In this document: piece by piece, positions 18,026-53,600 of the stretch
Position numbering within the stretch: position 1 is the first letter of the stretch
How the letters are laid out: every line of letters starts with the position of its first letter
Source of the DNA: Symbiodinium natans
Taxonomy: Eukaryota > Sar > Dinophyceae > Suessiales > Symbiodiniaceae
NCBI GenBank assembly: GCA_905221605.1
Contig: CAJNDS010000434.1
Coordinates: 62,001-126,000, forward strand
Direction of reading: 5' to 3'
DNA: 64,000 nucleotides
Position numbers and translations under genes: made by a program
The notes under the pieces: model-generated
The model's database searches: none
Told to the model about the DNA's origin: nothing
The model's input: only the letters and a program-made list of their open reading frames with translations

Positions 18026-18079
18026 TGTGCGCGTGCATGCATTTGCTTTATGCTTGTGTATACACACTAAAGTCACTAA

Positions 18080-24547: not shown

Positions 24548-24839
<292 letters not shown>

Positions 24840-28577: not shown

Positions 28578-31500
28578 TCATCCGTGCTGCATCTGATTGA
28601 GCTTGGTATGGAGGCTGCTGTGAATCCGCTCGAAGGAGTCGACCTGTTTGACAGAGAAAACGCCCAACAGATTTCAAATGATTGTGGGATACTTTCTGAG
28701 ATACTTTGTGGGATACTTTGGGGGATATTTTGTGGGATACTTGGTGAGATACTTTGTGGGAGAACTCGGCTCCCGGCCCACTTCTGCAGGCCAGTGAACT
28801 GCTTGGCTTTCTCCCCACGACCGGAGCTGACTTGCAGGAAGCCCTGCGCGTGCCGTCAGTCCAACCATTCCCAGCCTAGGGCCTAGGAACCTTGAGAAGA
28901 CCTAGGGTTTAAAATATGGTTGATATTTGAGAAGAAGGCTTCCTGTTTCGACTCTGTGCTGGTAAGTTCTACAAGTTGCCTCAATGCCATCGATGCGAGC
29001 TGCAATTTTCTCGTCGAGGATCAGCTGAACCAAGAGGCTCACCACCTGCGGAGCTTGTGCCCCCGAGATGTTTTCAAGAGCCTCGTGCACCTCTGAACCG
29101 GAGCCTCCTCATTGGCAACGTTGATCTCCTTGGCAAGGAAGTCCAAGCTAACACATCGGTAGGGCTTGATGATGTTCTGGAGAACCTGCTTCTGTAGCCG
29201 ACAGGTCAGCAATGGCAGTTTCACAAGTGAGTCTCGATCATCTTGACAGGTTTGGGGCTTGGGAACATGCAGGGCCTGGGGCTTTGCGGTTTTGGGGCTA
29301 GGGTCCCTTCTCTACTACACCTTTCAGCTGAGTCCAGGAGGCCTGCAAGCGGATGTTTCGAAGCAGGTCCTCACACACTCACATCGGAAGGAGCTGCAAA
29401 ACAACCACCCCGAAACAGTCGAAGCTCGCATCCACAAGCAAGACCTTGAACAGCCGTCCTGCAGATACGTGCGAATGAAGCTGTCAGAGAGAATCCGGTA
29501 AGACGGATTGGTCAAGAGCTGGTCGATCGTGCCAATGTCATTCTGCCTTTATGGGCAGGGATCTTGTCAAGGCAAGTGTCAGCTCCTCTCCGCCCCTCAT
29601 GTTGAGCCCTTTTTGAGGAGAGCCCCACACACACACATCGGCCCGGGGCTCCCACTCGTATGCCGTTCGCAACGAGGCCATCGCGCTTATTTCAGGATCG
29701 TCCTGATACACCTGGCGAGGCAGGAAAGACATGGACAACTTCCTCCCTTCCAGTCTTTTTTCCTTCTGATCTGTGTGCCCTCCATATCCCTCCGAAGTGT
29801 TCCAGCGATGGGCGTTGCATACTGCGTGACCGAGCTTGAGGACAAGAGTCCGCGAGCAAGCGGATCGATTGCACTACATGAATTCGTGAGGTTAACAAAA
29901 TTTTCACAGTTGCCGTCACGACTGGAGTCCGAATGCGAGACGAAGGGCTTCCTGCTGGAACAGAAACATGCGAGGCGCTTGCAAGGCGTGATCTCTTTAC
30001 TCTCTCTCCCCCCTGCCCTCCACAATGTCAGGTACAATTGTGCGCCTTGGCTTCACGCGAATCAAATGGGTTGATCGAGGAAAGCGCAAGCATGTTGGCC
30101 AACACCTAAGCCGAAGCACGATGCAGCTCGAGCATGAGGACAGCCTCTCCCGCATCCCGAGGCAGGCGCAACATATTTGAGCATGGTCTTTGCCCGGCTC
30201 GCATTGCCAGTCTCTTGGTAGTTCTTGAAAGCTTCAAAGAACTCATTGTAGGCCGCCTGCCAGCATCTGAACATCCCCCAAAACACTTCAAGACGTTGAA
30301 TGACTGAATGCTGCACAAACCTCCGAGACATGTTTTGCGAATGCCCTGTTCAACAGCTCTGGCAACGGTCTAGGGCCATGTGTCACCACGACCGAGCAGA
30401 ATGACTTGCCTAAAGTCGTGTGTATTGCTAACTCCATGCGACGGCTGTTTGAAGAGACGATTTCTTGCGAACCCAAATGTCAGCAAAGCCTCCCACTTCT
30501 TCTCGCTCATGAACATCTTGCCCCCGCTCTCTCGGATCACCGCAATATTGCGCGGGTCCGCGATTGCCTAAGTGGGGTCTTGCACTGGCTTGCAACTTGA
30601 TGGGCAAACATGGGCGGATCTGTGGACCAGACAGATGTGAGGTTGATGGTCTTCGGGTAGATCTCCTGCGGGTCTCGGGTTTGCGAGCTGATGCGCCTAG
30701 CCTGCGCCTACTTCGCATGCCCAAGTCCTTCATGCGCATGGAGTTCTTGGTCAAAGTGCACATCTGCCAGGCAGCATCGCGCTGAGCAGGCTGACGGCAG
30801 AGCAGGAGACAGATGGCCATTCGTGCGCCTGGATCTCGAGCGCATAGACTTCGAGCAGATGCGACCCCTGCCAAGCCGCCAAGCTTCAAGATGCCTCTTT
30901 GACTTACAAACTTCGTTTCAGTGCACCTGAAAAAGCGTAATGTTGATTCGGTTTGCTTCAGAATGACCCCGGCCTTGCTGACATCGTCCGTCCCATCTGG
31001 CTTCTGGCAAGTCCTGTGCAGTGCCTGCAGCCAAACTTTGCTTCACTCTCACCCACTTGAATCAGCTTGAACCGACTTGCCATTGATATACAAACACAAG
31101 AGTTGACCTTCTTTGTCAGAGCTTATCTGCTTCACCCTTCGCTTCCTTTCAAGCGCGGTGGTGGTGGGGGGGCTGGGGTCAGGGGAGCGCGGGCCTTCAC
31201 CAGGCGCTGCAGCTTCTGGACGTCGCCTCTCATCGGCTGTTTCTTTTACGCGCTGCAAAGTGAAGATTGTGAAGTCAGTTCCGCCCCCCCCCCCCTCCCC
31301 CCCGGGCCCATCTCCAGGTGCAGCTTCGCAAGCTTCACGGAGGTGCTGAACCAGAGCCTCGCGCATTTGCTTGGTTGCAGCTTCGCCTCTTGGGCTCCTG
31401 TGGGGCTTCCGTGGGGCATCTTGGGCACCGGGCCGCTGGTTCGCCGTGGCCTTCAAGGCATCGAGGGTGAGCTCGTAGATGGTCTCCAGCTTCGTCAGGT

Positions 31501-32604
31501 CGCTGGCCGACGACACGGAATCCAGCACCTCATACGCAAGGTGTGAGCCTTCCTTCAAGGCACCGAGAGGCCAGTAGAAGCATAAAAAGAGCAGCTGGGC
31601 TCCACTCCGTGTTGATCGCCTCGCTGGCATCATTCCTGGTCACCTTCAGCTTGGTGCGGCACCAAGGTAGCGGCAGATTCGCTACGCTGCAACGCTCCCT
31701 GTACTCCCCAGACTGAAAAAAAAAAAAAAAGAGGCCTGGTCCATGTAGCTCAAGAGCTCCCGGTAGCGCGTGGCCATGTCCTCAAACCTCCCAATCCTGG
31801 CACCTGGGAGTCTCATGCCACGACTCCAAAACCCCAAGAAAAGTGGGAAGATGCGGAGATCCGGGCACAGGATCACGATGTTTTGGAGGGCCTTGAACCT
31901 CCAAACGACCTGGCCGCCATGCTCCCCGATTCTCTGCTTAAAGAGGCACATGTTGCGCGATCCCCGCGCTTCACGTTACCAAAGTGAAGAGAGCCTCGCT
32001 TCCGCGTGCGGTCTCCAAAGTAACCACTCGCTGGAACTGCTCAAGGGCCTTACAGCGTTTCGCATACATTCTCCCAGACTCTGGCAGATCTGAGGAGCCA
32101 GAGCGCAAAAAAAAAAAACAGCACTTGGAGTTGTTGCCTGTTCCGGGTAGTTCTGCTTGTTGTCATCAGCCTGAGAACAGAACGTTTGCTGAGCACAAGC
32201 TTCCGATACTCCCCTTAGAACCTTAATAAAAACAACATTTTTAATATCCTCCTGGGTTCTATATACACAAAAATGAAAAATCCCAGGCAGGATATAGCCT
32301 CAGGCCGCTTAGGCTACCTACCAGGCGCCGCCTCGTAGAAGGTGTTCTCGATCTGGATGGCCTCTTCGTCTCCATCCTGTTTGCCACACCAGCTTAGGGC
32401 ATTGGATGGTTTTTTGGGCAATTAATATATTTCAAAAAACAGTCAAGCACGACATATTGCAAAAAAAATGATACTTCTATTTTAAAATATTGCAAAATAC
32501 TGGTTTGTTGTAGGCTTTGGCCCGTTTAGGCCCCCCGCCTCCTCCTCGGCGCCACCATAGGGATCATCATCGGACTCGTACTCAAACTCATCCGAGTCTG
32601 ACAT
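28578..32604 (-). CDS. CSN2: COP9 signalosome complex subunit 2
   Basis: CSN2 is a PCI-domain subunit of the COP9 signalosome, which removes NEDD8 from cullins. The ATG at 32604 opens an acidic N-terminus (MSDSDEFEYESDDDPYGG, exon 32604-32539, GC 5' splice site) typical of CSN2. Then follow, in CSN2 order: AIQIENTFYEAA (from 32376), ALEQFQRVVTLE (32048), RFKALQNIVIL (about 31900), GRFEDMATRYRELLSYMD (about 31795), LETIYELTLDALKATANQR (about 31490), LWFSTSVKLAKLHLEMG (about 31360), ALHRTCQKPDGTDD (about 31020), HLLEVYALEIQ (about 30865), IAVIRESGGKM (about 30545), EFFEAFKNYQETGNASRA (about 30255), NSCSAIDPLAR (about 29895), QDDPEISAMASLRTAYE (about 29715), TIDQLLTNPSYRIL (about 29545), and the PCI winged helix QVLQNIIKPYRCVSLDFLAK (about 29190) with SLLVQLILDEKIAARIDG (about 29035). 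The tail is KQFTGLQKWAGS (about 28815) and ERIHSSLHTKLNQMQHG with stop at 28578. The gene appears complete. Confidence 0.92.
28683..28772. repeat. Intronic 15-bp tandem repeat
   Basis: About six imperfect copies of GTGGGATACTTT(G) with GAGATACTTT variants, inside the last intron of the CSN2 gene. Confidence 0.8.
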
Positions 32605-32879
32605 CCTCCTCCTCCGCGAAAGTCTTGCGGAAGAGCAGGTGTCGAGTCTAGCGGGTTGGGCTTAGGGTGCTTCTATTTTTCCTGCTTGTCTCATCCTTCT
32701 CATCGTCTAGCAAAAACGAATCCGGTCGCCAGTCACATTCGCAAGGACTTGCGTCTGCACAAGGCAACACATAGTTCGCGCTTTGTCCGGAGAGGGCCCG
32801 CGTTTCCCTAAATAAAGGTACCCCGAATGCACCCCAAACTGCTCTAATCCTTCTCATCGGAACCCCCAAAGATTACTAT

Positions 32880-34720
32880 TGTCGGAACTTCGCAGTAACA
32901 GTGTCTGAGGCAAACTACAACTGGAGCCCCTCAACCTGCAAATCAGTCGCCTGCTGGGTTGTGCAAATTGCGCTTCTCTGCTTTCCTGCCCTTTTGTCTT
33001 CATTTGAGTGGTTCGGAAGCTTCCACCATGCTCATGCTTCACCTTTCTTTGCCGTGCAGAATCGTGCAGATGCAGGCATTGCAATCAGCGGACTGCTCTT
33101 GGCATCCTCACCGATCTGGCCCAGCGCTCCGAGAACCTGCATGAGTCGGGCCAGCCGCGATGCAAAACGTCTGCAAGCGGCCCGCGCCTTGTCAGCACAT
33201 ACTCCTACGGTTGGCACATGCCACCATGACCATGGCATGCACCTGCCAGAAGCACTAAAAGTGGCCGTTGAGGAGACCCCCGAAAAGAGCAAACGAGCAC
33301 ACAAGGACCCAGGGCGCCTGAGCCTGGAATTCGGCTGAGCCCATGAAGAGCCCAAAAGATGCAGAGACTGCAGTGAAAAAGACACCCGCAAGGTTTTATT
33401 CCAGGAGCCGGAGCGTGGCTCCGGAAGCAGGCCTCGGGACATCATCCCGCCACCACGCCTCAAAAAGCCCTCCCACTTTTCCACGGCTTTTTTTGGTTGT
33501 TCAGGCGGCACTAAATAGTTGGGCAACTACCAGGTACCTGAACTGGAGGTGCGCAGCAGTTGCTTCGCTATTGCGCGACGTCACGCTGCACTGGCCTCAG
33601 GGCCAATGCACTACCTAAGCTACTGAGTAGGTGCTCAAGAGCTCAGACTCAGCTGTGGCCAGATGCCTTTCGCATCTGCTGGCATTGCGAAGCCACAGAC
33701 AGACTGCAGGTCAACAGCGCAATTCATGTCGCATTCAAAACACTAGCTGCTCTGATGCCCCAGAAGTCTCTAAACAAAAGGCCGACCAGGTCACTAGCTA
33801 TGTCACGCTGATGTATCGCATTGTATGCCACAGTCTATCTGGCACAGCTCTCCTCCATCAGCACACTTTGCTCAGCTCGCGTGTGTCATTTTGGCACGCA
33901 CGCAGCTTACCACGGAGCAGTATGTGACAGCGCGTCACAACTCTTTGCCGGCGCTGGCTTGCTCGTAAACTTGCGCGAAGGCCTGGTCCTTGCATGCGCT
34001 GAGAGCTGGCACATCTCCATCTGCAGGGCTGACTGTGGTGCAGCGGTATGAGTGCAGCCACAACCGTCCATGAATGTCCTTCATGATTCGGCCCATGAAG
34101 TCCACAAAGACCTTGCCCAGCACCGTAGGGTGGTAAAGAGTGCAGAGGCCGTCAGATTTAAGTCCAAGGCTAAGGTTCACAGCATCTAACCCTGTGGGAA
34201 CAACAACGACAACACCTCAAATGCCCTGTGTGCAGCCGCCCGCAGTCCTGCTCACAGTGTGGACTTCCCAAGATCCCAAGATGGCCCTTTACGCTGTCCA
34301 GCATGGTGTACACCAGTGCACGTCACAGACTCGCATGCTACTTGCTGCATCCTAAAATGCCCAAACTGTCTCACTCAAAAAGGTGTAAACTGTAGATGTA
34401 CGAGCGGTGTCCATTAGACCGGAAGACCCTCCACGCCAAGATGTGAGTTTTCTACGCTGCCCGCGTAAAAGCCTGAGCACCCTAACACCGTTGCAGAGCT
34501 ACAGAAAGGGATGTTGCGCTGATCCACACCGTTAGACGCCGTTACACCCCGCGTAACCTGTGAAAAAAGATGCAAAGGTCCGGCCTTGTGCTGGTTGGCC
34601 TCAGCGATGGGCTCAACCACCTTCAGCGTTCTCGCGTAGAGCCGCAGCATGTCCATGGCACGGCCTTGGCACCAGTAGGGAATAAAAAAAGGCTGGTGTT
34701 GGGCCACTCAGTGCCTGCTT
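32880..34720 (-). CDS. Unrecognised gene between CAND1 and CSN2
   Basis: Minus-strand blocks of coding character are MDMLRLYARTLKVVEPIAEA (about 34600-34655), LGLKSDGLCTLYHPTVLGKV (about 34110-34165), FVDFMGRIMKDIHGRLWLHS (about 34045-34105) and RLARLMQVLGALGQIGEDAK (about 33100-33155). The last recalls a HEAT repeat (ALGxIGxxA). They lie between the CAND1 end and the CSN2 start on the same strand. No family was recognised, and they could belong to one or two genes. Some could be late CAND1 exons, although they do not fit the known CAND1 C-terminus. Confidence 0.35.
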
Positions 34721-34787
34721 TCAAGGTCTTTCATCCGACTCTCGCTCTCCACTTCGCTTGGACGGTGGTTGATGTGGCTACTAGTTA

Positions 34788-37700
34788 CTAGATGCTACTA
34801 GTATCGTAAAGAGGCACACGACCTCGTCTAGCCCCGCATGACTCCAACATGTCGTGCTTAGCAGCATACAGCAGGGCTCCTGCCGACTTGCTGCTTCGCC
34901 TGAACTTGCTTGATCCACCGCATGATGCAGCGGTCGAACCTGCCAGGGATTTGTCTGTCCGAGTCCGGCACGTGCAAGCTTCAGAAGCTTCAGAAGCTTC
35001 AGAAGCTTCAGAAGCTTCAGAAGCTTCAGTCCAAAAGGTCAGGTGTGCAAGGACAAATTGCAGCACGCTGTTTGGTAGACACTGTGGCGGCGCACGGTTC
35101 GACCAAATCACCAACGCGGCCGATGATGCGAAAGAGGGCGAAGTTCCAGGAGCAGAGGTCCTGCAGCAGCCTGGCGTGCAAGAACTCGACTTGCTCATGT
35201 GGGGGCTTACGAAAATGGGGGACCCCTAAGATCGATCCCGAAATAGTAAGATTCCCTTATAGTAAGGACCCCAATAACCTACCCCTAATTCCGTAAACCC
35301 GCATGTGTGGTTCACGGATTCATGGTCACATCGCAAGCGCTTCACATGCCAAGCGCGTCAGCGTGGCTGGCAGCATATGACCTGGATGTCTTCGTTGTCG
35401 CCCATCCCTGGTGCATGCGTCCACGCAAGCGTTGAACCACAAGAACTTCGCCACGCGTTGTTTCTGACACTGGCCCTTCTGCAGCTTCCGTGCCTTGTAG
35501 TACTAGGTCAATAAGCGTTGGCGAAGCTACCTGCTCTGGATAGGCTGCAAGCAGTGAACAGCACACCTTGGGACGCAAAATCGCTTCTGCATCAGGCACT
35601 GCAAAAAAAAAACCATGTCAGCCGAAGCAAGCAATTCTGCACGGCCCACACTCAGAGAGGGGCGGTATACGCAAACTTCCGCAAAGGCAGCCCATCGTCT
35701 ACCTGGCGAATTCTCAGAGGCCCTGCAACGATCACACCAGCCTGCACAGACCCCCCCACCTTATGCTTGAACGGCCCCAGGTCCACCTCTCTGATGAGCT
35801 CCGGCCTTGCACTTCTGCTGCAAACAACAGCGACCCCAACGATCAACCACAAAGAAGAGGAGCAGGAACTAACAGCATTGTGGAACAGCAACAGGAACGG
35901 CCCAGCAGCACGAGCACCAACCGCTGCTGCCGCTGCAGCTGCTGAAAAAGCAGCACCAGTTTGCATTGGGTGCATGCAACAGCGAACTGGCCAAGGCATG
36001 CGCTTCTGTTTGGAATCCTCTTTGATTCGTTCGAGGATGAGGTCTGTGCTGTCCTGCAGGCAGTTGAAAGTTGAAAGCCCCGAGCGGAAACATCGCGACG
36101 CCCTGTTGCATTGGGCAGCTTAACCCATTCATTTGCATGGTCCACTCATGGTCCCTCAGGATCTCGGAGCAAGTCGGGGAGACACAAACAACGTTCACCG
36201 AATGCAGCGCCGCTTTCCTCACCTGGCAACAGCACAGAGTAACCAGAGGTACACACAAAAAAACAGGTCAACACTGGGCGCGATAAGTCTCGACCTGCAA
36301 CTCCTCATCACCCAGGCAGGTCAGCAAGGCTTCCTGCACAAGTCGCAGTAAGCATGGTTTGACCCTGTTGGCGAGTGACATCAACAACAGACCCGACCTT
36401 GAGCGGCAAGACCGCAGAGGCCTGTCTCAACACATTAGACTGTTTCTTTCCGTCCCACAAAATTCCACAGACCGGAGGCTGATAGAGGCTGATAGATAGC
36501 GCACCTGACACTGCTTTGCCGCAGCGAAACGCACGGCAGCCACCGCGGCGGCTCTCATCCTCCAACTCTCCCTGGCGCAATGTCAGACAGAAGGAAGCTG
36601 CAAGGCTGGCGATGGTGCCGATTCGCTCTCTGTTTCGGGCCGCCTGTCTCGATTAGACAGCAATGTTGTCAAAGCTTGCATCACGGCATCCTGGCCAGCA
36701 TGAAAACCAAGCACGCGCAATGGGAATTGCAAACCACTGTGAGTGGAATTAGTGGTGTCGAAAATCCACCCGAGGAGGCAGTCAAACTGACAAAAACATG
36801 ACATGGGGCAAAAGCGCGACGAAAACTTCGCTGTGTTCGTTTTCCTACGGAAGGCCTTCTCTATCCTCTGACAAGGAACCCTTTCCCGTGGAGATGTCAA
36901 AGCACACAACCCAAAGCCCAGACCCAGCTTGGGTTTGTCACGCAGAAGGGGGTGCCCTTCTCTGGCACCTCCGGATTTGAGCCAGGGACCAGTTTGTCGT
37001 CAACAACAGACCCTGGCACTGCTTCGACTATCTGTCAAGGCAAGCAATCCACGCACAGGACGCTCCATTTGGGTTATATGGGTGTTTTGGGTCTGGAGAA
37101 ATGGCGCTACAAACGTTTGGAGCCCTTGCCAAGCCGCAGGAACTCTTATTAAGCTTGCTAACGCCGGGGGACGACCTAACGCACGCAAGCTGTTTCCAGA
37201 GGCGCTTTGCGGTGAGAAAGGGCACATGCAAGCTGGCTTGCCAAGTCACGACCGAGGAAGGAAGGTACTTGTGTGAAGGCGCAACATTTGTGAAAGGGCC
37301 CAGGCCCCAGTGCGTCACTCAAACATCTTGTTCGCGAAAGTAAATTCCCAGACCTGTCAGACTTGGCGCCTGTTGGCTGTCCAGGCGAACATGCACCCGT
37401 CGAAGTAGCTGCTTTTTCGCCAAAACGAGCGACAATTCATGGTGCTTCTCCTCGGAACGTTTGTTTACGAAGTTCTCCAAGCCCTTGTATTGAAACGGCA
37501 TGAGCCGCAGGCTCAACCTTGGGGATGTGTGTATAGACTAATGAAAGGCAAGGTTCTCCCAAATTGCTTTGGACTTGCTTTCTATTCTTGGACCCTGCTG
37601 CCAGCGGGCACGCAAACGTTTGCGCCCCGCGTTGCCCGTCGCCATAGCGTGCTATGCATTGCGGGCTGTCAAGCTGCTTTCTTCATAGATGTTTGAGCAA

Positions 37701-40700
37701 CCGCCGAAAAAGATGCCGCAAAATGCCACAACAGCGCAACGGGTCGAGGCTTGTCCGGGGAGAGGAGAGCGCCTGCGTTGATGCGGTAAGTCCTGTTACG
37801 TTTTGTCAAAGCTTCCGGCTCCTGGCACAGTCCGAGGCACACGCATGTTGTCCAGCATCCCCGACAAAAAATGCTGATCCACTTCCTAGGAAACGCTCTG
37901 ATCGTGCCAAGATCTTCCCACGCACAGTGAACGCATTCTAGGTCGTCCTGTGCATTAGGACCGCTCGGAGGGAGCTTGTCTTCAGCATGGAGCGCAAGTC
38001 GCCGAGCCAAGGTCTGGTTGGCCCTTTGCTGCCGAATGCTCTGAAGCCACTCGCGCCACCCGCAGAAACCCCAGCAGTTGCAAGCGGCTGCTTGAGGCTG
38101 CAAACAAGGGCAGACCAGGGGCAGAGATGCCTATGGCCAGCCCAGCAAGCAGCCAAGAACATCGGAGTCAGAGATGATGAGAAGACCGCGTGCGCGATGG
38201 CCGCGTGACGAACCCAAGCGGAGAAGACTAGAACTTTCGCGTTGAGATGATTGCAGCTATACATCAGAATCCAAAATCGCATCCGAAGACTCAGGCCGAC
38301 CTCCTTGCAACAGTTTTTGATGCGATTTCCACCATGAAAAAAGCTTCACATGGCACTTTTTCTGGCATACCCAAAGTAGACTTAGATGATCTCACGACTC
38401 TGACCATCAAGGTTTGCTACATTGGGACCAGTGAAATTAAAGTAAACACAGCCTTTCGGGCATCAGATGCCTGGTCAACAGTGAGCAGGTGTCCCAGCGA
38501 CTCAGACACGACATTCCGCATGCTCTCCTGGCAACCATTCGAAGTGCTGCATTCAAGTGAATACAAAAGTTCCACATCATGTGACGTCATTCTCTCTCAT
38601 TTTTACCTAGCAAAGCATAGAAGGTACCTCCTGGGAGTCAGCATACTGCTGCAGAATGGGCCTTAGCGCGAGCCAGCATGAGCACTGACTTTGGCTAAGC
38701 CTGACCGAAGGTCTGAAGCCCAGGCAGAACCCGTGGAACATGTGGCTTCAAATGCTCTGCAAGAGCACGGGATCCATGCCTGGTAGAGCCAACTGCAGCA
38801 ACAAGAAGGCACAAAACTTGTTTCGGGTGGAGGGCTTAGGGGGTTAGGGGTTTTGGGGGGTAGTTTAGGGCTTGGGGTCACACTGCAATGGCCTCTCAGC
38901 AACGCCAATCGCAATGACTTCCCGAAGCGACGTCAACAGCAAGTACCTGTGCTAGCAAGAACTCCGCAAGAATTCCGTGATGCCGCTTTTCGGCGGCTCT
39001 CAAATCGGCGCTTTCAGCAGTTGCTGGTATACAGCGCTTATCTGGTTGATTGCGGCACTGTTTCTTTTGGGCTTCGGCGCCGGCCTGGCAAGGGGGTTGA
39101 ACTTGAATGAATGTCTGGCTGCTCTTCGAGTCTTGCTTCATGCCAGCAAAGATTTCTCACCAAAGCACCCTGCCTGCTGCACGTTGTCAATCACGACTTT
39201 CAGCAGCGTGCCCATGGCACCCACGGTTGCCTGAGCATGCCACCAAAGGAATGCCCCGAAGGATAGATCATGGCACCACCAGGCTCCTCAGGCTCCTAAC
39301 ATCTTCCGCAGTCTCGCTTAGGCTTCCACATAACCCAACGCCAGTGCAGCTGCAAGCCGAATCTCGTCCTCGGACAAGGGAAAGAAAGGATGTGATGCCA
39401 TTGATGACTGAAATTCAACTAGCGTCCTGCTGGCTTTCCAGCTGATGCAGCAGCACATCGCAAAAGCCGGGAACCCCGGAAAGGTCAGCGTACCTGCGAT
39501 GAGCCAGAGGCTTCTTGACGACTTTTCATACTCTCCATACTCTCCATATTACTACCACTGGATGCGTCAAACCTCGGGGGCGCACTTGCCAGTTTCACCC
39601 AGAGCCAGCAGCGACAGCTCACACTGATGCATTACCTGGAGGTTGCACCCAGGAATACTTCAGATCCCTTCTGTGTCATCTCATGTCATCTCATGTCATC
39701 TCGTTTCAGCACACCTCAGGTGCCGGGTTCCCGGAGGTCTTCTTCACACTCTCCAAGAAGTGCTGCACCGCAGCCTGGCAAAAATGGTAATTGCACCCAA
39801 AAAAAGTCGCTGAACTCGCCTCGAACACCCCGGGGGCTCTTTGGGGCTATTCGACGTTTTACCTAGGGGGGGGGGGGGGGGGGGGGCGAGGTGCTCCTTC
39901 TGCACGTCGGGAGCCGAAGAGGCCGTTACTGCAGCCAAACCCTTCGCGAGGGTGCCGATGACCTGTCACGCGCATCATGGCGGAAAACGCGAGACTCGAA
40001 TTCCCTCAAAGCCCCCAGAGCGTAGCAATGCGCCAGCGCGGCGTGCCGCTGTGCCTGCACATGGCATGTTCTCATTAGCCTTGGGCTCCTAAGTCCTAAG
40101 TCTTAAGTTTCACACGGGTTCGGGTCATTTCAAGGCTGATCATCAGGACTCTTGCTTTCGAGGTTGCTGTCTGTCTCGGCTTGCACATCTCGGCTGCCCC
40201 GCCTGCGCCTGCGCCGTAGCGATGACCGAAGTGTTGCTGAGCTCCTGGCAGGCGATGGTGCTACTCGCACGAGGTAGATTGAGCGCAAAAGCTGGACACT
40301 TTGGACACCACTTGGGGCTTTTCCTGGCGCAGCTTCTCGAAAGGGCAGTGGTCGCGATGCTGCGCAACTCGAGACAAGAAGTTCAGGATCGAATCCTTGG
40401 CAGCCACTTGCGCATTCTGCATACTCTACTCTGCGAGTTGTCCTCGTGGAATATATCTCGAGGTCCCGGCCAAGGCGCTGCCCTGCAGGAGCGGCGACCG
40501 ACACACGGTCAGCACCGCCGGCACCTGCTGGTCACGGTCATGGGGCCAAGACATGCAGTCATGCAGAGCAGAGCAACACAAAGTCAGATCTGACTCTGCC
40601 GCTGTGGCACACAGCGCTCGATCACCTGGGGTGCCATTCGCGGTGAAGTGGCAAGGACCTGACCACCCCATCGCCAGCGTCGTGCAAGCGCTACACGTAT

Positions 40701-43700
40701 GAAGCCCGCCATGCAAGCCTGCACGGCGATCTGAACGCAGAGATCCGTTATGTAGAGGTCGGTGTCGGTAATGAACGGAACCATGTCACCTGGCATGGAC
40801 ATACGCCTCGCTGTCAAGCAACCTTTCTCAACTATCATGGCCGAATGGCCAAGAATCTGCATCATGGTCTCATTCGGCATGCCGCCGCCATACCTGGCAC
40901 GTCCAACCGGTCTTACGATCATGTGCCCGGCATCTACCATGCGGAGCAGAGCACTTCTTGATGAGGTGCACAAGTGCATCCAAGCACTGCTGCCTGCAGA
41001 AAGGACATATTGATACAGATGTACTATGATGTACAGGCAGCATATTATGGACAGGGGAACGGTCTGGTGGCCTGAAGGAACGGCTATTCTGGCTCAGGTA
41101 TTGTGACAAGGTGCCACCAACCTCAGTTCACCCCAGCTTGCTTGAGGAAAAGGGGGCTCCGCCACAAGCATTCCACTGCCCTCCAAGAGACGGCCGGGAG
41201 AATGGAGCCGACCGCAGCGATCTGTACCTCCCGATCATGGCATCTGTAGACCCAATCCTAAATGCCGCGCAAAAGCTGTAGGCTGACAATTCAGACACCA
41301 TGGCTTTAAAGGCCAGGAGGAGGGGCACTTTGGAAATGCACATCGTCCTCAAGGCCTTGATGGCGGTTGTGCGGGTGACCTGCAGGTGCTTCCTGCTGAC
41401 AAGCTCCATGCAAACGATATACTGCCACCGGCGCGCCCCGCCTCGTTCTTGATGCGCTCCACAAAGGACGGCAGGCAGTCTTGAATCGGAGCCTGGAAGT
41501 CCGGCAAGTCCTGCCCAGCATGATTACGCATCCCTACACAGGTGGCTCCATGTACAGCTCAAACAGGCACCCATCCCCCATAGAAGCCCCAGTCCCCAGT
41601 GCAAGCCACCAAATGGCCCAAGCACTCCAGCGCACTTTCCTTGACCTGCCAAGAAAGGTCGGCTTCTTCATCGGCCACTTAGGAGAGCCCTTCTCCTGAG
41701 AGCCTCTTGGTCAATGTCCGTCGCCAGGAGCTTGCTCTTGAGTACCTCTTCGCAGGGCCATGCGCTGCAAACATCTACAAACTACAAAGCTTTAAATCGG
41801 CTTAGGCTCCTAACCTACACCACGCGAGGCCATGCTTCTCTTGCATGTCGAGGCAGAGCGCACGTCGAAAACGGGCAGCATAACCTTCAACTCAGAGCTG
41901 ACTGCCTCTGGAGACGGCCTGAAGTTCAGAAACCAAACGCAGTGAAATGTACCTACAGCGTCTGGCAACTACTGCTGAGGGGTTGCTGCTAAACAGCCGG
42001 CCAAGTCCCCTCAAGAAGACAAGAGGCCTCAGGGTGTAGACGTACGCCCCGATGGCCCTCAGAGCCTGCGCAACAAGCACTCTGCCAGCCCATCTGCTTT
42101 CCTCACAGCCTAGTAGATGGAGACAAGGAATGCAGTGGCGGGAAGTTGTTCGATACACTTTCGGACGGTCTGGTATCATTTTCTTTGCTCGACCCGATCA
42201 TGGGGCTTCCCTGTATTTCGCCGCGGCCACAGCCTGCTACCCTGCAAAGTGGTGAGAGCCTAACTCTCACCCACGGTTCGAGCCACGCAGCCGAAAGAGC
42301 AGCGTGGCCATTGGGGCCGCAGGTGGTCCAACTGCTGCTCTGCAAAGTGTCCAACATTTCTCGCTGCGTGGTCTGTCACACGGCGGCGTTGCTTGCAAAG
42401 CCTGTATCCCCGACATCCTTCCCGGGGCTCCCATGTTTGCATCGTGCAGCTACAGGGGATGTACCAACGGGCGCCATGAAAATAAGAACTCATCGAACCG
42501 CATGAGCCGGCTGCCTGCGCAATCGACTTGTAGTACGTGTCCGAGCAGCAGGTCAAAAACAAAGGGCCTCTTGAATGCTGTGAATGCTTTAGTTTCCTGA
42601 CCCACGTCCCTTCTCCCATCTCAGTCTGGGACAGAGCTCCGGAGCAAGCTGCTGAAAAGTCGCGGCCGTCAAGAAGTACTCGGCCAAGTGCCTGAAAGCA
42701 GGCTGTGAGCTCCACATCCGGCTCTGTGCGGATCCCAAGTCGCAGGCCTAGTCAAGACCAGACTGTCCAGCCGCATGGATGAGTTTGACTCCTTCATGGC
42801 TCGTACGAGCTCGTCCTTGACCTGCCAAAAACCAGCGCTGGCAACGCGCAAGCAGGAAGCTCACGAGCGGATCCTGTGGCAAGTTGGGCTCGACGTGCTG
42901 CGGAATGCACTCGGACCTTGGTACGCAGAAGTTGCCGAGAGAATCAGTTTGCGGCTTGCGCTATACATTCGCGATAAAAATGAGTGCCAAGCAGTGTTCG
43001 CAGCAGGATCAACGCACCCTGTCGTGTTTTTGCTGCCTGCAGGAATCTGCTGATGCTGCGATGCTGCATTTTGCGACATCCCTACATTCCTTACCAAGCT
43101 CCCGCGAGGTCCTTGGAGCGCATCTGCTTGTTCAGCTGCGAGATGCATGCCGGAACCACGGCGATGAGGTGCTGCGAGGTCGGCCGCTCCTGGGGCCATC
43201 GAAGATCACCATCAACAGAGCAAGCTGTGAGCACAAGAAGCGAAAATGAAACACAAAAAAAGTGTGGGGTGTCCTTGGGAGGTAAGGCTCGCTCCACCTG
43301 CAATAGAGTCGACAGGAGCAGGGCAGATTCCTAGAGCCTTGTGGAGACAAAGGCTCTCAGCATTCTCAGGTACCTCCAGTATGAAGGTGGATGAAGCTGA
43401 AGGGGTCGAAGCCACGCTCGAGGCAGCAAAGAAAGGCTGCGTCTCGCAGGAATGACAGAGTTGTCCATAGTTGTCCGAACTCAAGAGGCAAGGGTCTCAA
43501 ACACATGCTTTACACCTTGCCTTTATCACGGCTGCCTGTGCCATCTCACCAAACGTGGTGAACACGTCCAACTTGACGCTCTCCTCACCTGAAAGAAATC
43601 AAAGCAGCTACAATAACTTCCTGGTGTTGCAGATGTCCAACTACTGCGCTCTCCGAGATTCTCGCGCTCATTGAAGCGTGCTATCAGCGGCTGAGCAAAC

Positions 43701-45225
43701 TTGGAGTAAATTTCATCTAACCTGACCCATCATGCAGAAACATCATGGCAAAGCCAGCTTCACGAACTTGGCAAGATCCAGCTCTTACTGTTGGTTCGTA
43801 GGGAATGAGGGGGTGAGGAACTCTATACAATCCCTCAAAGGGTATATGCAGGGGGATATGGGGTACCTGATTCCCTCCTTCCCTACTAGCCAACAGTAAG
43901 AGTTCTGACTCCCACTGGCCCACCTGTCCGGGAGGCCCTTTACCATGGCCTCCAAGACCTGTCGAAGAGAAAGAGTGCTCAAAAGACAGCAAGAAGCTGA
44001 AATGGGGTTTGCGAAATTAGGGGGACCCCTGAGAAAGACCCCAAGTCAAACGGAGCCACCGCTCTGAAAGCCTCTCTGAGAGCTTCCCCCAAATCCTAAA
44101 CCCTAGCCCTAAACCCTAACCCCTAACCCTTAAACCCTAAACCCTGGCCTTCAGCGCTGCTCTCCGAACCTTCCAGGAGTTGTCGTCGTCGTCGGAGTCC
44201 ACCAGCCCATCTTCATCGAATTCCTCGAAGCCGTCGTCCATGGTGGCATCCTGGATGCCAGACCAGGGTTTAGGGTTTAGGGTTCAGGGTTTAGGGCTTA
44301 GGTTTAGGGTTTAGAGCAGTCCTGGGCATCACCGGCATCGTAGAAGTTGGGATCGTATGCTACCAAGCTGAGAATCACCCCGCAGAGCTCGTCCAGGTGG
44401 GGCATCATCTGTCCAACAACAGAGAGGTCAAGACTTCGCTGCAAGAATAGGGATAATAATTCTTAATAGTAATAGCTAACCATATTTAACCCATATTAAT
44501 GAGGTAATAATAAAAATAGTAATGATAGTAATAGTAATCATAATAATGATGATAATGCTTCAAGCACAACAAACGGCAACTCTTTTGGCAAGCCGTTCCT
44601 CCTTGGAGCAGCGCAGCACGAAGCACTCAAAGGCGTTCAAGCAATTCTCTACAACCTGAAGGAGCAGGTATCAGGCTAGAGGCAACACCTTGAGAACCTT
44701 CAGATGCCAGGGGCCCCACCTCATGGTCTTTCTCATTATCGCCATCCATGGAGACATCTTCTTGAGTCGCCTGCGCATCCAAGAGACAAGTGAGTGAAGG
44801 ACAAAGAGGCGTCGGTTTCCGAAGGGGCCTGGTTCACTATCTGGAAGAACAGTGGGGCAATTTCTTTCAAGTGCTGGCCGATTCGGAAACCTTGTCTCAG
44901 GGCAGCGTGCGGGCAGCTCTTGGATGCACGCTCAACTTGTGCTCAAGCACGTGGAAGTTTCCGAAATTAGGGGTACCTTATTGGGGTCACTCATCTAAGG
45001 GGAGCCTACTATTTGGGGGTTTTTATTCGCCTCGGCTTCCTGCCGACAAGCGTCTGGAACAAGCAGACCCCGGTTCTTGCCTAACCCAACCCATGCAAAA
45101 TTTTGTGACCCCCCCCCCCCCGCCCTGTGGGACCCCCCCGAATCGCTTGGAGGAGCTGCAAACCGAAGCCGTGGAGGGTCCCGGCTGTCGGTGGCTGCTA
45201 CAGTCGGATCCCCCCTCCACCCTCC

Positions 45226-45258
<33 letters not shown>

Positions 45259-48200
45259 TTTAACCCCGCTGCCCTGCCCGGCTGCCGAGGCGGCGCGCCC
45301 AAGCGTTTACAATTATAAGGGCCCCCATATGTTCGTAAACTCCCATGTGTAAGTGGCAGGCCGACATTCCTACTCACGGTGCTGATGCACTGGATGTACC
45401 TGATCACAACACCAGAGACATTCACCCGGCGGCATGAAAGTCCTCACAACATGGCCAACACATGCCGAAGCACTTCTGCTTTTCTGCTTTTGTGCCCGCT
45501 TGTCGGACATCGGCAAGCAATGTCCTCAATTCAAGGCATTGAAACTTATATCCGTCTGATCTTTCACAAGAGGGCCCATTCCGTGTCCTCATCAAGGTAT
45601 CTAGCTGCCGATCTGCTAGCACTGCGGAGAGAGCTCCGATGCAGGCTATGACCTGCCACATCAAACTGTAAGATCACAAACTTTTACCCCTGCCTCAATG
45701 GTTCCTAATGACACGGTCCTGCTAACGCTCAAAGGCGGAAACTGTTTGAAGCGAGGGACGTTCCCGACTGTGGACTGTTCGTGTCAGACCGACAGTACTC
45801 AGGTCATGGCCATCACAACTCGCGTGCATGTTGATGATTCTGAACATTCAGCCGCGCAGACAACATTTGCCTTCAATGTGCCCCGTGCACGCACAAGACG
45901 TTTTGTATGACCGCCAAATGCACGGGGGCACGGCGATATTCTGTCACTTCATCACTTCTGATTCTCCCTTTCGTTCATCAATGATCATCATGTCCAAAGT
46001 TGTGAAACCAAGAGGAAAGTGGCGTTTAGGGCTTAAGGGTTTAGGGCCGTAAGTGAGTAGTATAAGAATTTTGGCGCTGCGTGTCAATGGAGCCACGAGC
46101 CACTGCTCTCAAAACCCGACCGCATGGCCGCACGATCCGACAAGAAAAGTTAGCAAGACCGCCTCCCGAAGAAATAATGTACGGCGAACCGTTTCTTCGG
46201 AACCCCAGCAACAGTAATCCACGGCTTCTGACTCGCTGCTTTGCTTGCCAAGCTGTTTTGTCGGCTTGTGTTCCATAGCATCAACAGCGACCTGCCCGTC
46301 TGTGAAATTCTGGGGTTCGCCTTCCCTAGATAATGGCACGTGCGTGATGAAAACAGGACAAGCCTTGCTTCTCTGATTCAACTAACAGTGCCCCCCCCCC
46401 CCCCCCCACACCACTCGCAGCGACATGTCACCACACAACGAAACTTGAAAGCACACTGAGAACACGGATCCAGGCTGCCCACCTTTTTTCGCAAGGAGGT
46501 CTTGTGCTGCTTGGGCTTTAGCAAGTTCAGCAGCGAAGTAGCCATGTTATCCTGCATCAGCTTCGGCCGTGAGAGGAAGCGTCTCAAGTGCAGCAGACGT
46601 GTCACTTGCCCGGGAGGCCTGGTCGGACCACTGCATTATACGATTGTCACCTTGGTTGTCGCGGACTTGCTTAAAGTCAAAAGGTTGCTTGCGTTTCGTC
46701 TGCACAGTGTGGACCGTCTTGTATGGAGTTCCTCTTCCACCAAATTCAACGAGTTGGGCAGTTGCTCGCTGCTGAAAGGCTCAGGTTGGCACCGAATCTC
46801 TTCAAGAAGTCGTGGAAGACGTCTGTACATTCTTCCTTGACCTGTGCAAAATATCATGTTGCGCAACACGAGAATCAACTCACGGTATCCGGCTCCCCTC
46901 AAAGTGAACTAAAAACGCTCTCTTTCCAGCTGCCTCTAGCGAAGGAATCGACGTGATGCCATGCAACATCTTTGGCAAGACCTTGACTTTCGTCTCAAAG
47001 CTACTGAAAGTGACTGAAGCCGCTTGGAAACACTGCGCCAGGCCAGGAATCAAGCATTTTGGCAGGCGAGAGCGCTACAAGAGGCCGGCCTCAGGCCAGG
47101 GTCATGGCGGGTCATGCCGATGCAGATTCCCAGGCAGCCCCCCGCCCACAAGCCGATCACAGAAAACATGCAGCAGTGCAGCCCAGGAGCAGCTCCGACA
47201 ACAGGCCCTTCAAGCATGTTGCATAGATGTCCCGAACCTTGCAGGCTCAGCCAGGCTCAGACTCTGCACACAAAGGGCTTCGGTACCAGAGTTTCTCACC
47301 TCGGCTTTGCCATCCAGAACTTGCTGGCTGAGTTTGGCCAGCACCTGCCCCCACAGAAAGAGTAAAGGCAGGAATCTGCAAAGCGCGGTGCAGTGCGTCG
47401 CTTGCGCCTCTCCGATCTGCTGCTCTTGAAACTTGCACACTATTTTGGCCAGGCACTTCACCTTGCGCTTCGCAGGAGACATCCCACAATCCTAAGGCCC
47501 GGCATCTTGTCTTCCATATTCTGCCCAGTCACGGCATTCCCCTGCACGTCGATGCTCTGGTCCTGACAAGCGTAAAAAGAGAAAGGACACAAAGTGCATC
47601 GGTCCTAGCTGCGACGTATTGCGCCTCCAGCTGCTTCACAAAAGCTTGACATACTCTTTTCTGGAGGTGCACATCTAGCACCTGCCAGGGGGGCAAATCG
47701 AACAGACTCGGTTCGGAACTTTCGTGCGAGAGCATGCATAGCGGTTTCCATCACTTGACACCAGTCGCTCAGTCACTCAGCCACTCAGCCAGCCAGCCAC
47801 TTAGCCACTCAGACACTTAGACACTCACAAGGGTCTAAGTGACTGAGTGACAGGGTCTGGCCTGTGAAGGCTAAGACTTTGAGTGACTGAGTGACTGCCT
47901 TCAGCCTCCGACAATGCAAGTCTAGGTGTCTGAGTGACTGGGTCTGCTCTGAATGGCTGAGTGCCTGAGCGACTGGGTCTGACTTAAGGGACAGAGTGAC
48001 TGAGCTCGACTGGTTTCAACATACAGCGTCTGAGTGTCCGATCTGCGGCGGCCCAATCTCGAATTTTCGGGGGGCCTCGGGCCGCTCCGCCATTGCTTCT
48101 TGCCGCGAGCGCCCTAAGCCCTGTTCGTAACTGCTGCGTTGCTTGGGGATGGTTGTCATCGCTTGTCCCCAATTTCGCCAGCGTTGAGCAGCTTCAGTGG

Positions 48201-48517
48201 GGCACTTGCTTGATTTAGGACAGGAGTTGGAACAGTCCATGTGGAACCACAAAAGCCTACAATGGCCCAAAGCGACCCCCATGTATACACCGTCCAACAT
48301 CTCGCGCGGAGCGACATCAAGCTGCAGTTACCACAAGCCTGGTTGGACATTGTCACCTCCTGCGTCAAATCTGAGGCAGCCATGAACCGCTTGTCCTGGA
48401 GATGTCGGAGAATTTCCGACTGGCAAAAGGCAAGGCTGGAGCCGAAGAGAGTTGCGCCTTGTCCCAATTCTCCATGTCCTCAAGCAGCTGTGACACGCTG
48501 GCCGGGTTCATCGCCAT
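34788..48517 (-). CDS. CAND1: Cullin-associated NEDD8-dissociated protein 1 (CAND1/TIP120), about 50 small exons
   Basis: CAND1 is a HEAT-repeat solenoid that wraps unmodified cullins and exchanges substrate receptors. Exact N-terminal exons: 48517-48458 (MAMNPASVSQLLEDMENWDK), 48395-48357 (DKRFMAASDLTQE), 47681-47625 (VLDVHLQKRVCQAFVKQLE), 47562-47533, 47461-47408 (VKCLAKIVCKFQEQQIGE) and 47344-47300. Later blocks in CAND1 order: IRYIQCISTVSRNVG (45400), GFRIGQHLKEIAPLFF (44890), acidic exon ending SWKVRRAALK (44250-44149), IARFNEREN (43690), HLIAVVPACISQLNKQMRSK (43165), LVRAMKESNSSMRLDSL (42820), LLATDIDQE (41740), FVERIKNEA (41490), QQCLDALVHLIKKC (40985), RSPLLQGSALAG (40510), YLLLTSLREVIAIG (38947), MRNVVSESLGHLL (38520), LLTCLGDEELQV (36325), ELIREVDLGPFKHKV (35790), DDGLPLRK (35685) and DLVEPCAATVS (35110). 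Introns start with GT, GC or GA. The C-terminal end is uncertain, and about 1.9 kb (36.58-38.47 kb) holds no assignable exon. Confidence 0.92.
34979..35029. repeat. 9-bp tandem repeat CTTCAGAAG
   Basis: Five to six perfect CTTCAGAAG units. Each unit is its own reverse complement apart from the centre, so the array can fold. It lies near the 3' end of the CAND1 gene, probably in an intron. Confidence 0.9.
35207..35303 (-). repeat. Dispersed repeat copy (AATTAGGGG family) in a CAND1 intron
   Basis: The reverse complement reads TTTACGGAATTAGGGGTAGG, TTATTGGGGTCCTTACTATA and AGGGAATCTTACTATTTCGG. It aligns along about 65 bp with the copy at 44949-45020, which lies in the opposite orientation. 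Confidence 0.75.
36580..38470. other. Large unassigned interval inside CAND1
   Basis: Between the exon MRNVVSESLGHLL (about 38475-38522) and AAAVAAVRFAAAK (about 36525-36565) only about 15 residues of CAND1 are missing, yet the interval is 1.9 kb. Weak minus-strand blocks (WQGLQTFVAPFLQ near 37110, SIRQQRANQTLARRLALHAE near 38010) do not fit CAND1. It may be a large intron with an insertion or a nested gene. Confidence 0.4.
39869..39887. repeat. G homopolymer run
   Basis: A run of about 18-19 G, likely unstable in sequencing, within a CAND1 intron between the exons around 39900 and 39775. Confidence 0.9.
44005..44040 (+). repeat. Partial copy of the AATTAGGGG dispersed repeat
   Basis: Reads GTTTGCGAAATTAGGGGGAC then CCCTGAGAAAGACCCC, matching the outer part of the copies at 35207 and 44949. 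Confidence 0.5.
44094..44148 (-). repeat. Telomeric repeats at the 5' end of a CAND1 intron
   Basis: On the plus strand this is a run of CCCTAAA variants, that is TTTAGGG on the coding strand. It starts immediately after the 5' splice site (AAG then GCCAGGGTTTAGGG) downstream of the acidic CAND1 exon. About eight units. Confidence 0.9.
44251..44321 (-). repeat. 71-bp CAND1 intron composed of telomeric repeats
   Basis: This intron is set by the flanking exons (CAG at its left on the coding strand, GATGCCACC at its right). It begins with GA, ends with AG, and its interior is six to seven CCCTAAA units in coding-strand sense. It is opposite in orientation to the telomeric tract on the other side of the 102-bp exon 44149-44250. 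Confidence 0.9.
44430..44560. other. AT-rich CAND1 intron segment
   Basis: TAATAATAG and AGTAATAGTAAT simple sequence lies between the CAND1 exon ending at about 44412 and the exon at about 44612-44660. It contrasts with the GC-rich exons. Confidence 0.7.
44949..45020 (+). repeat. Dispersed repeat copy (AATTAGGGG family) in a CAND1 intron
   Basis: Reads TTTCCGAAATTAGGGGTACC, TTATTGGGGTCACTCATCTA and AGGGGAGCCTACTATTTGGG. It is homologous to the reverse complement of 35207-35303. A GGGCCCCCATATGTTCGTAA segment at about 45318 may be its far end. Confidence 0.75.
45218..45259. repeat. Poly-C tract
   Basis: A run of about 30 or more C preceded by CCCTCCACC units, inside a CAND1 intron (44.9-45.36 kb). 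A second C-run lies at 45109-45122. Lengths are probably unreliable. Confidence 0.9.
46390..46409. repeat. Short poly-C tract
   Basis: About 18 C in a CAND1 intron. Confidence 0.85.
47758..48005. repeat. CACTCAG/CTGAGTG direct and inverted repeat in a CAND1 intron
   Basis: The left half (47762-47830) has repeated CACTCAGCCACTCAG and ACACTTAG units. The right half (47835-48003) has many GTGACTGAGTGACTG units, the reverse complement. The two halves could form a long imperfect hairpin. It lies in the 0.68-kb intron between exons 48395-48357 and 47681-47625. Confidence 0.85.
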
Positions 48518-49169: not shown

Positions 49170-52100
49170 AGCGATTCCAAGAGAAACAGCGCTTACCACC
49201 AGCATCTGACAAGGAGCTGCTTTTGGCATCGCTCAAGTCCACGGCAAAGCAAACACTTTGTACAAGGGCCACCGTTGACATTCGCCAGGGGCCAGAGGAT
49301 GGAGGTATCGGGCATGACCTGAGCTCTAGAAGCGTTTGAAACCAAACATAGAACCCAGGGTCCTGTCTTGTCGCAGTCATGCAATTCGAAGCTGCCGCTT
49401 CATACCGCGCCACAGAATGAAGCACATCTTCCTACAGATGATGTCAAGGCCAATCCGAACACAGCCCGAGAGGCAGACCGGACATCCTCACAGATGCCAT
49501 ATGCTCAGTATGAGAAGTCGCAAATGCAGCCGCCAGTTTGCAACTTCTGCACCTCATGTCGGACGGTAGCGAATATCGCGAAGAATAGTGGACGAGGCTA
49601 GCCAAGCTCGGACAATGAATTCACGCTTGGGCACGGCGTTCTTCAGCTCGTAGTGCCAGGGCCCCGCCCCAGTTCGGCCATTTCCAGCCAGGCGCAGCTC
49701 CAGGCGCTCAAGCTTTGGCAAATCCTTACGACAGCATCGTGAATCATGATGCCGGGGGCATAGAGTGTGTGAATAAGAGAATGAATGAGCCTGCGAATGA
49801 ATGAACGCAGTGAGCACATGAACGAAACAACCTCTGTCTCTAGGAGTTAATCTGTTGAGTCGTGAAGGTACCAGCCAGGATGGGAGAATGAGGGTGAAAA
49901 GGGCCAAATAATAAGTCCTTTAAAGGGGCCCTTTTCATCTCCCTCATTCGTGCGGTTAACAGGTTCATGATGACACGGGTGAACAGGAATCCCCCATCCC
50001 ACTGACAGAGCTACAGCTCGCATTATTCGAGCTACGAAGGGTACAGGTGGGCTAAGGCCCCGGCACCAACGGCCCTTGCAAGCTCCCGCTCTCCGTGGTC
50101 CGCGACGAGGTTACCCCGCAGGTCTGCCACGAGCCTGTGAAGAGAAGTGTGGGGCCGCGTGCGGGGATCTACCAAAGAATCTCACCCGATGTCCTGTGCA
50201 CTTGCACTCAAGTTAAGGTGCTTCAGGCCTGCAAAGCTTTCCCAGTGAGCCCATGGCACGTGCAAGCTCGCATGCACCGGTGTCGCCTGTGCATCCAAGC
50301 TCTGCAATTGTACCAAGAGACCCAGCAGTCGCACGCGCACAGAGAAAGAAAGAGAGAGAGAGAATGTGGGGAGCGTCGGATCTTCAAAGCTTCTCACCTA
50401 TACCATTGCCACTGACATCCATCTCCAAGTTCACCAGACGTCGCAGTGACATCAGTGCCTTCGGCTTGCAGTCTGCACACTCTGCACAGCCTGCCTTCAT
50501 TCGGCAAATACCACAATGATGCAAAATGATGCAACATGATGCAACCCATGATCCCACCCTTTGCATATGGCATTGTGTGGGCATTCAGCTTTCCTGCACG
50601 GCGGCCTGCGATAGTTCGCGTGCGCCAACCTCGCGCATACGGTTTCCAGAGGCCAGGAAGCGCAGGCTGACCTTAAGCAGCGCAGCATAGCGAGCCCCCT
50701 GCACCCCGCAACAAAGGGTCCGCAGGTCCATGTGGCTCCGTGACAAACTGGGGCAAGGGACCAAAGACTGTTGGGCTGAGATTGCCTCCGGGACATGCAA
50801 CCGTTGAAGACAGTCACCACGGTTCCACAACGCCATTCTGGAGGTGACTAGGCTGGAGGTTCCCCTTGAATGAAGGAAGGGCCTGGGCCAAAAGGCGGGC
50901 GCCCGCAGAGCCTGCAGAGCGCCAGGAGGATTCACAGAGAACATTGGGGAACCAGGCTTCGACCAGAAGGATATACACAACCGAAAAACCCCGTGCAGGC
51001 AGAACAATCACTCAAGGCTCAAAGCAGCCTACGTGGTTCACGTTCAAATCGAGGGTCAAGCTTTGAAGCCCCTGCAGTGGTGCCAAGGACATGGCAACTT
51101 CCCCTTTCTGTTTTCAAGCTCGTGCCCTGTCGTGCCTCGAGGGCGGAGATGGCCATGCCGAGGTCATGAGCACCTCGCGAAACTCGGAATTTTTTGAGCC
51201 GAGGCGCAGCACGCTGCTCCCTCCGTGCACCTGCCCAGCCCACGCTGCTCACACTGAGGTCCAGCCTCACCACACGCAGCCACACTGAGCACACTCCGAG
51301 AGAACTCCCCGGCATCTCTCAGATTGCCCCACAACTGCCCTGTTACACTCCACCATCTTCCTCCAAAATCAAGTTCCTGCGGCTTTGCAAGGAGTATATT
51401 GTATTGATTGAGGCTTCAGGCAGCCGCTGGGTGCGCGACTCCAGGTCCTGAAGCTTCTGCGAAGCCACTGCATGGGCTATGTCCTGCAACATCCGACACT
51501 GGCCATGACGTCTGCATCAGAGAGCCTCAGAGCCTCAAGGCTCTTTAGCGCTAGCGAGGCCTGTACTCCAGCTTCGGACACCTGAAGATTCGTTCCAGAT
51601 GCACATGCTGCGCTCAGCGCACGTCCGTCCGGACTGCCCGAGGCATTGGCCGCATTTCTGTTGAGCCCCAGAACCAGGCGAGACAACCTCGGGCAAAAGT
51701 GTAGATGTGTTGTGTCATTGAGGCGAGAAAGGCCTCACAATACTTCAACGTTGCTGAGTGTCAATGCACGCCTGGGCCGAAGTATGGACATCACGCGGAT
51801 GCCAGCTGTGGGACCGACTTCAAGCCCCGCATAGCTGCTGCCAACTGCCGCGCGCCGTCCTGTGAACGGAGGGCCACGATCAATATGATCAATTCTGCGA
51901 CATGGGTGGAGGATGCGGAAGCTGACGTGCCCATGGCCATGTTAAGAACTTACGCCTCCATATTCAAAATGTTCAACATGCCCGTATGTCAGCTTCATTC
52001 GAGCCTCTCGACTAGCCCAGGCTCCTCGCCCACTCTGTTGTCAAAGAGCATAACTTCCAAGTCTGTCAGAAAAGGCAAGTCCAACACCTGCAGGGGCACT

Positions 52101-53600
52101 TGCGTGATGCACCTGCTGCCCCATGACAAGGAAATCGTCTGCACGTGGCAGGCGCGCCACTTGCGCCAAGCATCCGATTCCTGGGGGCAAGGCACCAGAC
52201 GTCTCAAGGCGCATTGCAAAGTACGGTAAGTGGTCTGCTTCCATGGCCTGGATCTGACACGCGGTTGCGATTCAGGTCTAGCACCTCGCCGGGTTCATGT
52301 AGGCTTTCGCTGCAACCAGTGCGTCGCTTCTCTTGGGGTTCCAACCAATTCTCGGAGCTGGCGCAGTGAACGGGCGCACTTCGATACTTCCCGCAGCCTG
52401 GCCACAAGAGCAACAATAGCCCTCTTTTGTCCGGTGGTTCGACAGCGGCAGAACAAAGCGGTGCTTTTTGCATGAGGTGCAACATGGCAGCTTGGCCCTG
52501 TGTCGCCAATGTCGTTCAAGCTCAAGTCCAGCTTCCTTATGTCCAGGCAACCCATTCCCTTCCTAACCAAGGCAGAAACAGAGAGAGGCAAAGAAAGATG
52601 GGGGAAGTACAACAACGAGCCGACTCCAAATTCTCTAAAGGCTTTGCGTGAGCCATCCGAAAAGTGCAGGCGGAGGGCAGTCTCTCGAGGCTCCGCAGCG
52701 TGCCAATCTCCTGTGCAGCGAAGGTGTGCCGGAAGTTATGGCAAAGGAGCTGCAAAGAGTACCAGGTCCTCGGAAAGCCTCTCGCATCCCGCGTACCCAA
52801 GTCCAGCACCTGGGCCGGTCTTGTGGACTCGACTGACCTCTTGAACCAGCCGTGCTTGGCCGCTGCAGAACTCATGTCTCCTCATGTGCTTCACTCGCAC
52901 ACGCATCACCTGTGGCTTTCGCAACTGTTTCGGCACTGGCTTCAGGGGGGCTTAAGATCTCTCGAAGTGGCACCTCCCAAAAGGAGCTCCAGGTTGCGCA
53001 GCTGTTGAAGAGAACCGACAGCCTTCGAAGGCTAAGATGCAGACAAAGAATCAATGCTCCGATTTCTGCCACATGAGACCGCCCTAAACCCACAAAGAAA
53101 CGAGCTCCGCTTGCTGAGAAGAAACTGGCCCCAAAAAAAAATGAGAAGGATCAAGGGCGCACAGCCACTTCGTGCTGAATGCTTGGCAGTTTGGGCCGGT
53201 GGATTTCGCGGATGCGCAGCGCGACGCGATTGACAAAATGAGGCGGATGCTTTAAAGTCAAAAGAATAAGTGCGAACCTCCACATAGTAAGTGAAGACTG
53301 GTCCCTGTGGAATGCCTGGGCCAGCTGCCGCGCTCCATCTTCGCCGATGGAGCTGAAGCTAATGTCTGCCTGCGTGTTGCGTGGGTTCAGGACACTACCA
53401 CTACGTCACTACGTTAGACGTCCGTGGTATTTCGCATCTCCACTGCAACGTAACTGCATTACAGCAACTCACAGAACTGACATATGCAGTTAAGGAAGGG
53501 GCTTTCAATTCCTTCAAGCATTCCAGGCTCCCCAGGGACTGCGCCAAGGCAGCTGTGACCTCCTGCAATGTGACGCAGACTTTCAAGAACACCAGGGACG
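49170..53600 (-). CDS. Leucine-rich-repeat protein, multi-exon, about one LRR per exon
   Basis: Minus-strand exons carry recurring LRR blocks: VTAALAQSLGSLECLKELKA (about 53510-53570), VGSLQQLRNLELLLGG (about 52965-53015), IRKLDLSLNDIGDTG (about 52498-52545), GEVLDLNRNRVSDPG (about 52250-52297), LEVMLFDNRVGEEPGL (about 52005-52055), LSRLVLGLNRN (about 51650-51685), VVRLDLSVSSVGWAGA (about 51225-51275), VSLRFLASGNRMREVGA (about 50630-50680), LRRLVNLEMDVSGNGIGE (about 50395-50450), LVADLRGNLVADHGER (about 50090-50135) and LPKLERLELRLAGNGRTGAG (about 49660-49720). The pattern LxxLxLxxNxIGDxGA is that of the ribonuclease-inhibitor-type repeats common in dinoflagellate LRR proteins. No F-box, kinase or NACHT domain was seen. 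Both ends are approximate. It lies directly upstream of CAND1. Confidence 0.75.

Follow-up and report, generated by a model that had tools for sequence, protein, structure and literature searches.

The window analysed here is a 64-kb stretch of Symbiodinium natans DNA, bases 62001-126000 of the 140-kb contig C434, in a genome of 759 Mb and 2543 contigs. Three genes follow one another on its minus strand, a leucine-rich repeat (LRR) gene, CAND1 and CSN2 (COP9 signalosome subunit 2). The first-pass annotation had proposed that CAND1 and CSN2 lie next to each other on one strand and this is borne out, as both are encoded on the minus strand, give spliced alignments that score above their nulls and match their namesakes in the PDB. 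The outer coordinates given for the pair, 28578 and 48517, are exact and correspond to the end of the CSN2 stop codon and to the CAND1 ATG respectively. The distance between the genes had been put at about 2.2 kb and is instead either 1.6 or 2.5 kb depending on the 3' end of CAND1: 1.6 kb if the gene ends at the TAG at 34188-34186, which leaves an intergenic stretch at 32605..34185 (minus strand, free of N) whose upper limit hangs on that uncertain end, and 2.5 kb with the last clear CAND1 exon (35062) as the limit.

CAND1 occupies 34186..48517 on the minus strand and starts with the ATG of MAMNPASVSQLLEDMENWDK at 48517. Its 3' end is uncertain; the last clear exon lies at 35062-35193 and is followed by a possible last exon at 34191-34250 with an in-frame TAG. 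The gene was modelled by spliced alignment guided by human and Arabidopsis CAND1 sequences. The human query scores 1156 against 563-623 in nine nulls and the Arabidopsis query scores 1100, the nine nulls belonging to the human query only. When the query is divided into ten segments of 123 amino acids, all ten score above both of their two nulls; three of them (residues 739-861, 862-984 and 1108-1230) do so by just 3-4 points, and because of this narrow margin the exon model is unreliable in these three regions and the internal exon list as a whole is only partly reliable. A phmmer search of the PDB with a 640-amino-acid join of the better exons returns seven sequences at E<=0.001, all of which are CAND1 or CAND2, with a best E-value of 1.4e-97 that is flattering since the query was assembled under the guidance of CAND1. 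An earlier join made by hand from raw minus-strand open reading frame (ORF) pieces had given no PDB match at all, which is attributed to intron sequence inside it, and was replaced by the spliced alignment, which resolved the exons. Among Pfam families, TIP120 (PF08623) is matched at 57.1 bits (cut-off 25.9, E-value 2.6e-15), in a match confined to positions 3-47 of the 166 in the profile, and HEAT repeats (PF02985) reach a summed 57 bits (cut-off 23.5) on the guided assembly, with no single stretch above the cut-off. The S. natans protein shares with CAND1 (TIP120A; PDB 1u6g chain C) its HEAT repeats, an acidic loop after which come SWKVRRAA and then the ELIREVDLGPFKH and VDDGL motifs, and a TIP120 match above the cut-off. 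It differs from it in being divergent, in its uncertain C-terminal end and, as modelled, in a gene broken up into dozens of tiny exons, with donors of the GC, GA and GT types. The acidic loop and SWKVRRAA are encoded by a frame-preserving exon of 102 nt at 44149..44250 (minus strand), which contains the best single match in a whole-genome search for CAND1.

CSN2 runs on the minus strand from an ATG at 32604 to a stop codon that ends at 28578 (28578..32604) and comprises about 25 short exons. Its spliced alignment, guided by human CSN2 and permitting GT, GC and GA donors, scores 757 against 164-226 in 18 nulls that consist of the plus strand, the reversed query, four shuffled queries and 12 other places or strands. 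The resulting model is near full length, with 438 amino acids and 26 exons, of which the first is to be replaced by the reading from the ATG at 32604, MSDSDEFEYESDDD; the last exon reads VDSFERIHSSLHTKLNQMQHG and is followed by the stop codon. A phmmer search of the PDB with ORF pieces chosen by eye, which relies on database letters and not on the guide sequence, gives four distinct sequences at E<=0.001 (best 6e-32), and all four are CSN2 and not the related RPN6. The C-terminal PCI domain (PF01399) is matched by the spliced model at 58.9 bits (cut-off 22, E-value 5.7e-16); the match covers residues 333-405 of the model, encoded by exons at 28960..29546 (minus strand). The acidic N-terminus, the PCI domain and the near full length are all shared with CSN2/COPS2 (PDB 9is6 chain B and 6r6h chain B), from which the S. 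natans gene is set apart by ordinary sequence divergence and by its many short exons.

The introns of both genes were modelled with an aligner that permitted GT, GC and GA donors and AG acceptors only. Between well-supported exons, the 13 of 25 CSN2 introns comprise 7 GC, 4 GA and 2 GT donors (median length 106 bases), and the 18 of 73 CAND1 introns comprise 10 GC, 6 GT and 2 GA donors (median 70). Non-canonical GC and GA donors are described for Symbiodiniaceae in PMC11453091. No spliced-leader relict is present in the window at up to three mismatches.

The LRR gene proposed to lie directly upstream of CAND1 is indeed found there, at approximately 50068..54762 on the minus strand. It is of the RNI type and its spliced LRR score of 342 compares with 167-200 in five controls; a Pfam read-through over the stretch yields only a sub-threshold LRR match (LRR_6). 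An F-box consensus scores 57 in this gene, within the 53-66 of 16 controls, although a consensus of 38 amino acids used without a positive control has little power. Elsewhere in the window, the minus-strand read-through over 8.8-28.6 and 48.6-58.5 kb gives one EF-hand match above the cut-off (31.8 bits against 25.4, in the read-through frame of 8800-18698) and other matches below it, and the EF-hand therefore probably marks another gene on the same strand. Nothing was recognised by eye among the plus-strand ORFs between 25.5 and 50 kb.

Each of the two genes has a single detectable locus in the genome. All 21 matches in the CAND1 search fall on C434, as do 13 of the 14 CSN2 matches, the fourteenth being on contig C18 at an E-value of 0.99. 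A search of the genome with the TIP120 family gives no match and is uninformative, since none of the 14 control genomes gives one either. Profiles of related pathway families have their other matches on other contigs: JAB, for which CSN5, CSN6 or RPN11 would be candidates, has four matches on four contigs, none of them C434, Cullin_Nedd8 has five on three other contigs with only the place on C2258 above the cut-off, and PCI has four, of which one is CSN2 itself and the others lie on three other contigs. The 140 kb of C434 thus hold no JAB, no Cullin_Nedd8 and no second PCI match in searches that are insensitive to short exons, as is plain from the exon-by-exon genome searches in which TIP120 itself was not recovered. 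Some of the weak matches may be due to chance because the 14 prokaryotic control genomes also give matches (JAB in one; Cullin_Nedd8 in four, none above the cut-off; PCI in five, one above the cut-off).

Cullins are stripped of NEDD8 by the COP9 signalosome; once bare, they are bound by CAND1, which exchanges their substrate receptors. In S. natans each product would presumably act in the cullin-RING ligase cycle as it usually does, the signalosome in deneddylation and CAND1 in receptor exchange, while the proximity of the two genes would itself most likely be without function. Under random gene order, and assuming 30,000-50,000 genes and modules of 10-25 genes, about 9-24 neighbours from the same pathway are expected per genome. 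For CAND1 taken alone the chance of a neighbour from its own module is about 0.04-0.16% (10-25 genes), or about 0.1-0.16% for a module of 25 genes; a reader who scans for any notable pair, however, samples the expectation per genome. Neighbours that share a pathway carry meaning only against such a genome-wide null. The common orientation of CAND1 and CSN2 adds little weight, since arrays of genes on one strand are the usual arrangement in dinoflagellates (PMC8110479 and PMC11453091). In S. microadriaticum genes are arranged in alternating unidirectional blocks (PMC8110479), which is reminiscent of the succession of the LRR gene, CAND1 and CSN2 on one strand. The functional clusters described there consist mostly of copies of specific genes and not, as here, of different members of a pathway (PMC8110479). 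The arrangement is very probably that of two ordinary intron-rich orthologues, with one detectable locus each, that are neighbours by happenstance; we infer that both genes are expressed and act as they do elsewhere, and that their adjacency is due to chance. As it stands, the locus means that this genome has a recognisable CAND1 and a recognisable CSN2.

The first-pass annotation had gone further and read the pair as a functional cluster. Of this reading the identities of the genes, their order and orientation and the outer coordinates stand, and the cluster itself has gained no positive support and is not refuted. Selection might have kept the genes together if co-transcription or chromatin coupling balanced deneddylation and receptor exchange, and it speaks for such a cluster that they are adjacent on the same strand, about 2 kb apart, belong to the same cycle and have only one detectable locus each. 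This is highly improbable, however, given that the other JAB, Cullin_Nedd8 and PCI matches lie on other contigs, that the F-box score of the LRR neighbour does not rise above its controls and that the pair is a single instance among many chances of seeing one, set against the several to tens expected by chance. There is a similarly slim prospect that the pair belongs to an old neighbourhood kept by inheritance only, in other words a neutral synteny block with no functional meaning. The 853 collinear blocks with 8589 genes reported for the pair of Symbiodiniaceae that shares most (PMC8045281) are compatible with this, but the same source stresses extensive sequence and structural divergence. 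A broader proposal, that selection maintains CAND1 and CSN2 side by side in dinoflagellates at large, as a module of two genes inside a single transcription block that balances the two antagonistic steps of the cullin cycle, appears very unlikely. A conserved linkage would make this a rare dinoflagellate case in which two different genes from a single regulatory cycle are kept together. Dinoflagellates are described as largely without transcriptional regulation (PMC11071213). The one paper found that brings together dinoflagellates, neddylation, cullins and genomes concerns Naegleria, and among the entries listed by two other literature searches (15 of 199 and 8 of 150) none mentions dinoflagellates. 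An assembly artefact that misjoined CAND1 and CSN2 between 32.6 and 34.8 kb has next to no probability, as nothing was found in its favour, no N occurs in the 64 kb of the window or in the 74 kb examined of the 76 kb of contig that flank it, and, if the contig comes from the hybrid assembly of S. natans CCMP2548 (761.6 Mb, 2855 scaffolds), that assembly is reported to have 0.02% gaps and a contig N50 of 358 kb (PMC8045281 Table 1).

The CAND1 exon that encodes the acidic loop is flanked by telomere-type repeats in opposite orientation, located at 44087-44145 and 44265-44314 within the modelled introns. On the sense strand (CCCTAAA)n precedes the exon and (TTTAGGG)n follows its GC donor. The stretch of pre-mRNA around the exon has a predicted minimum free energy of -119.2 kcal/mol (z -7.2), and none of 200 shuffled sequences is as good. 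Such inverted repeats could favour the skipping or the circularisation of this exon. Two more (TTTAGGG)n arrays of 15-16 units each are present in the window at 19100-19212 and 27627-27734, and telomere-type arrays occur in six of the eight stretches that make up the 74 kb of flanking contig. Genome-wide, GCCAGGGTTTAGGGTTTAGGG occurs 28,339 times with at most one mismatch, as opposed to twice for a backwards control, and TTTAGGGTTTAGGG followed after 90-120 bases by CCCTAAACCCTAAA gives 47,188 matches as opposed to none for the backwards control; this second figure counts overlapping matches within arrays and this order only, and the pattern, being self-complementary, gives the same number on both strands. 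In each of the five loci inspected (L033-L037) the G-rich array is preceded by C-rich units, the nearest of which ends 99-158 bases ahead of it. Interstitial telomere-type arrays are matched tens of thousands of times in the genome, and many form inverted pairs that enclose unrelated sequence and are separated by about 100 bases. The telomere and introner passages of PMC11453091 make no mention of telomere repeats in introns. It was also considered whether the arrays start at a GC donor as a genome-wide rule, which is unsupported, the GCC form having 7 and the TGA form 25 exact matches among the C1 matches listed. The inverted pairs possibly represent a family of hairpin or introner-like elements.

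Two further repeats lie in the window. At 58087-60911 a unit of about 730 bases is repeated in tandem, its three to four copies carrying the same minus-strand ORFs (beginning IHRSFLNALRRDSDQAAATSQ and LFSGECKGAGGALLWPSQ), and a nearly perfect GTC-type array at 24548-24839 consists of 49 copies of a 6-base unit with 97% matches.
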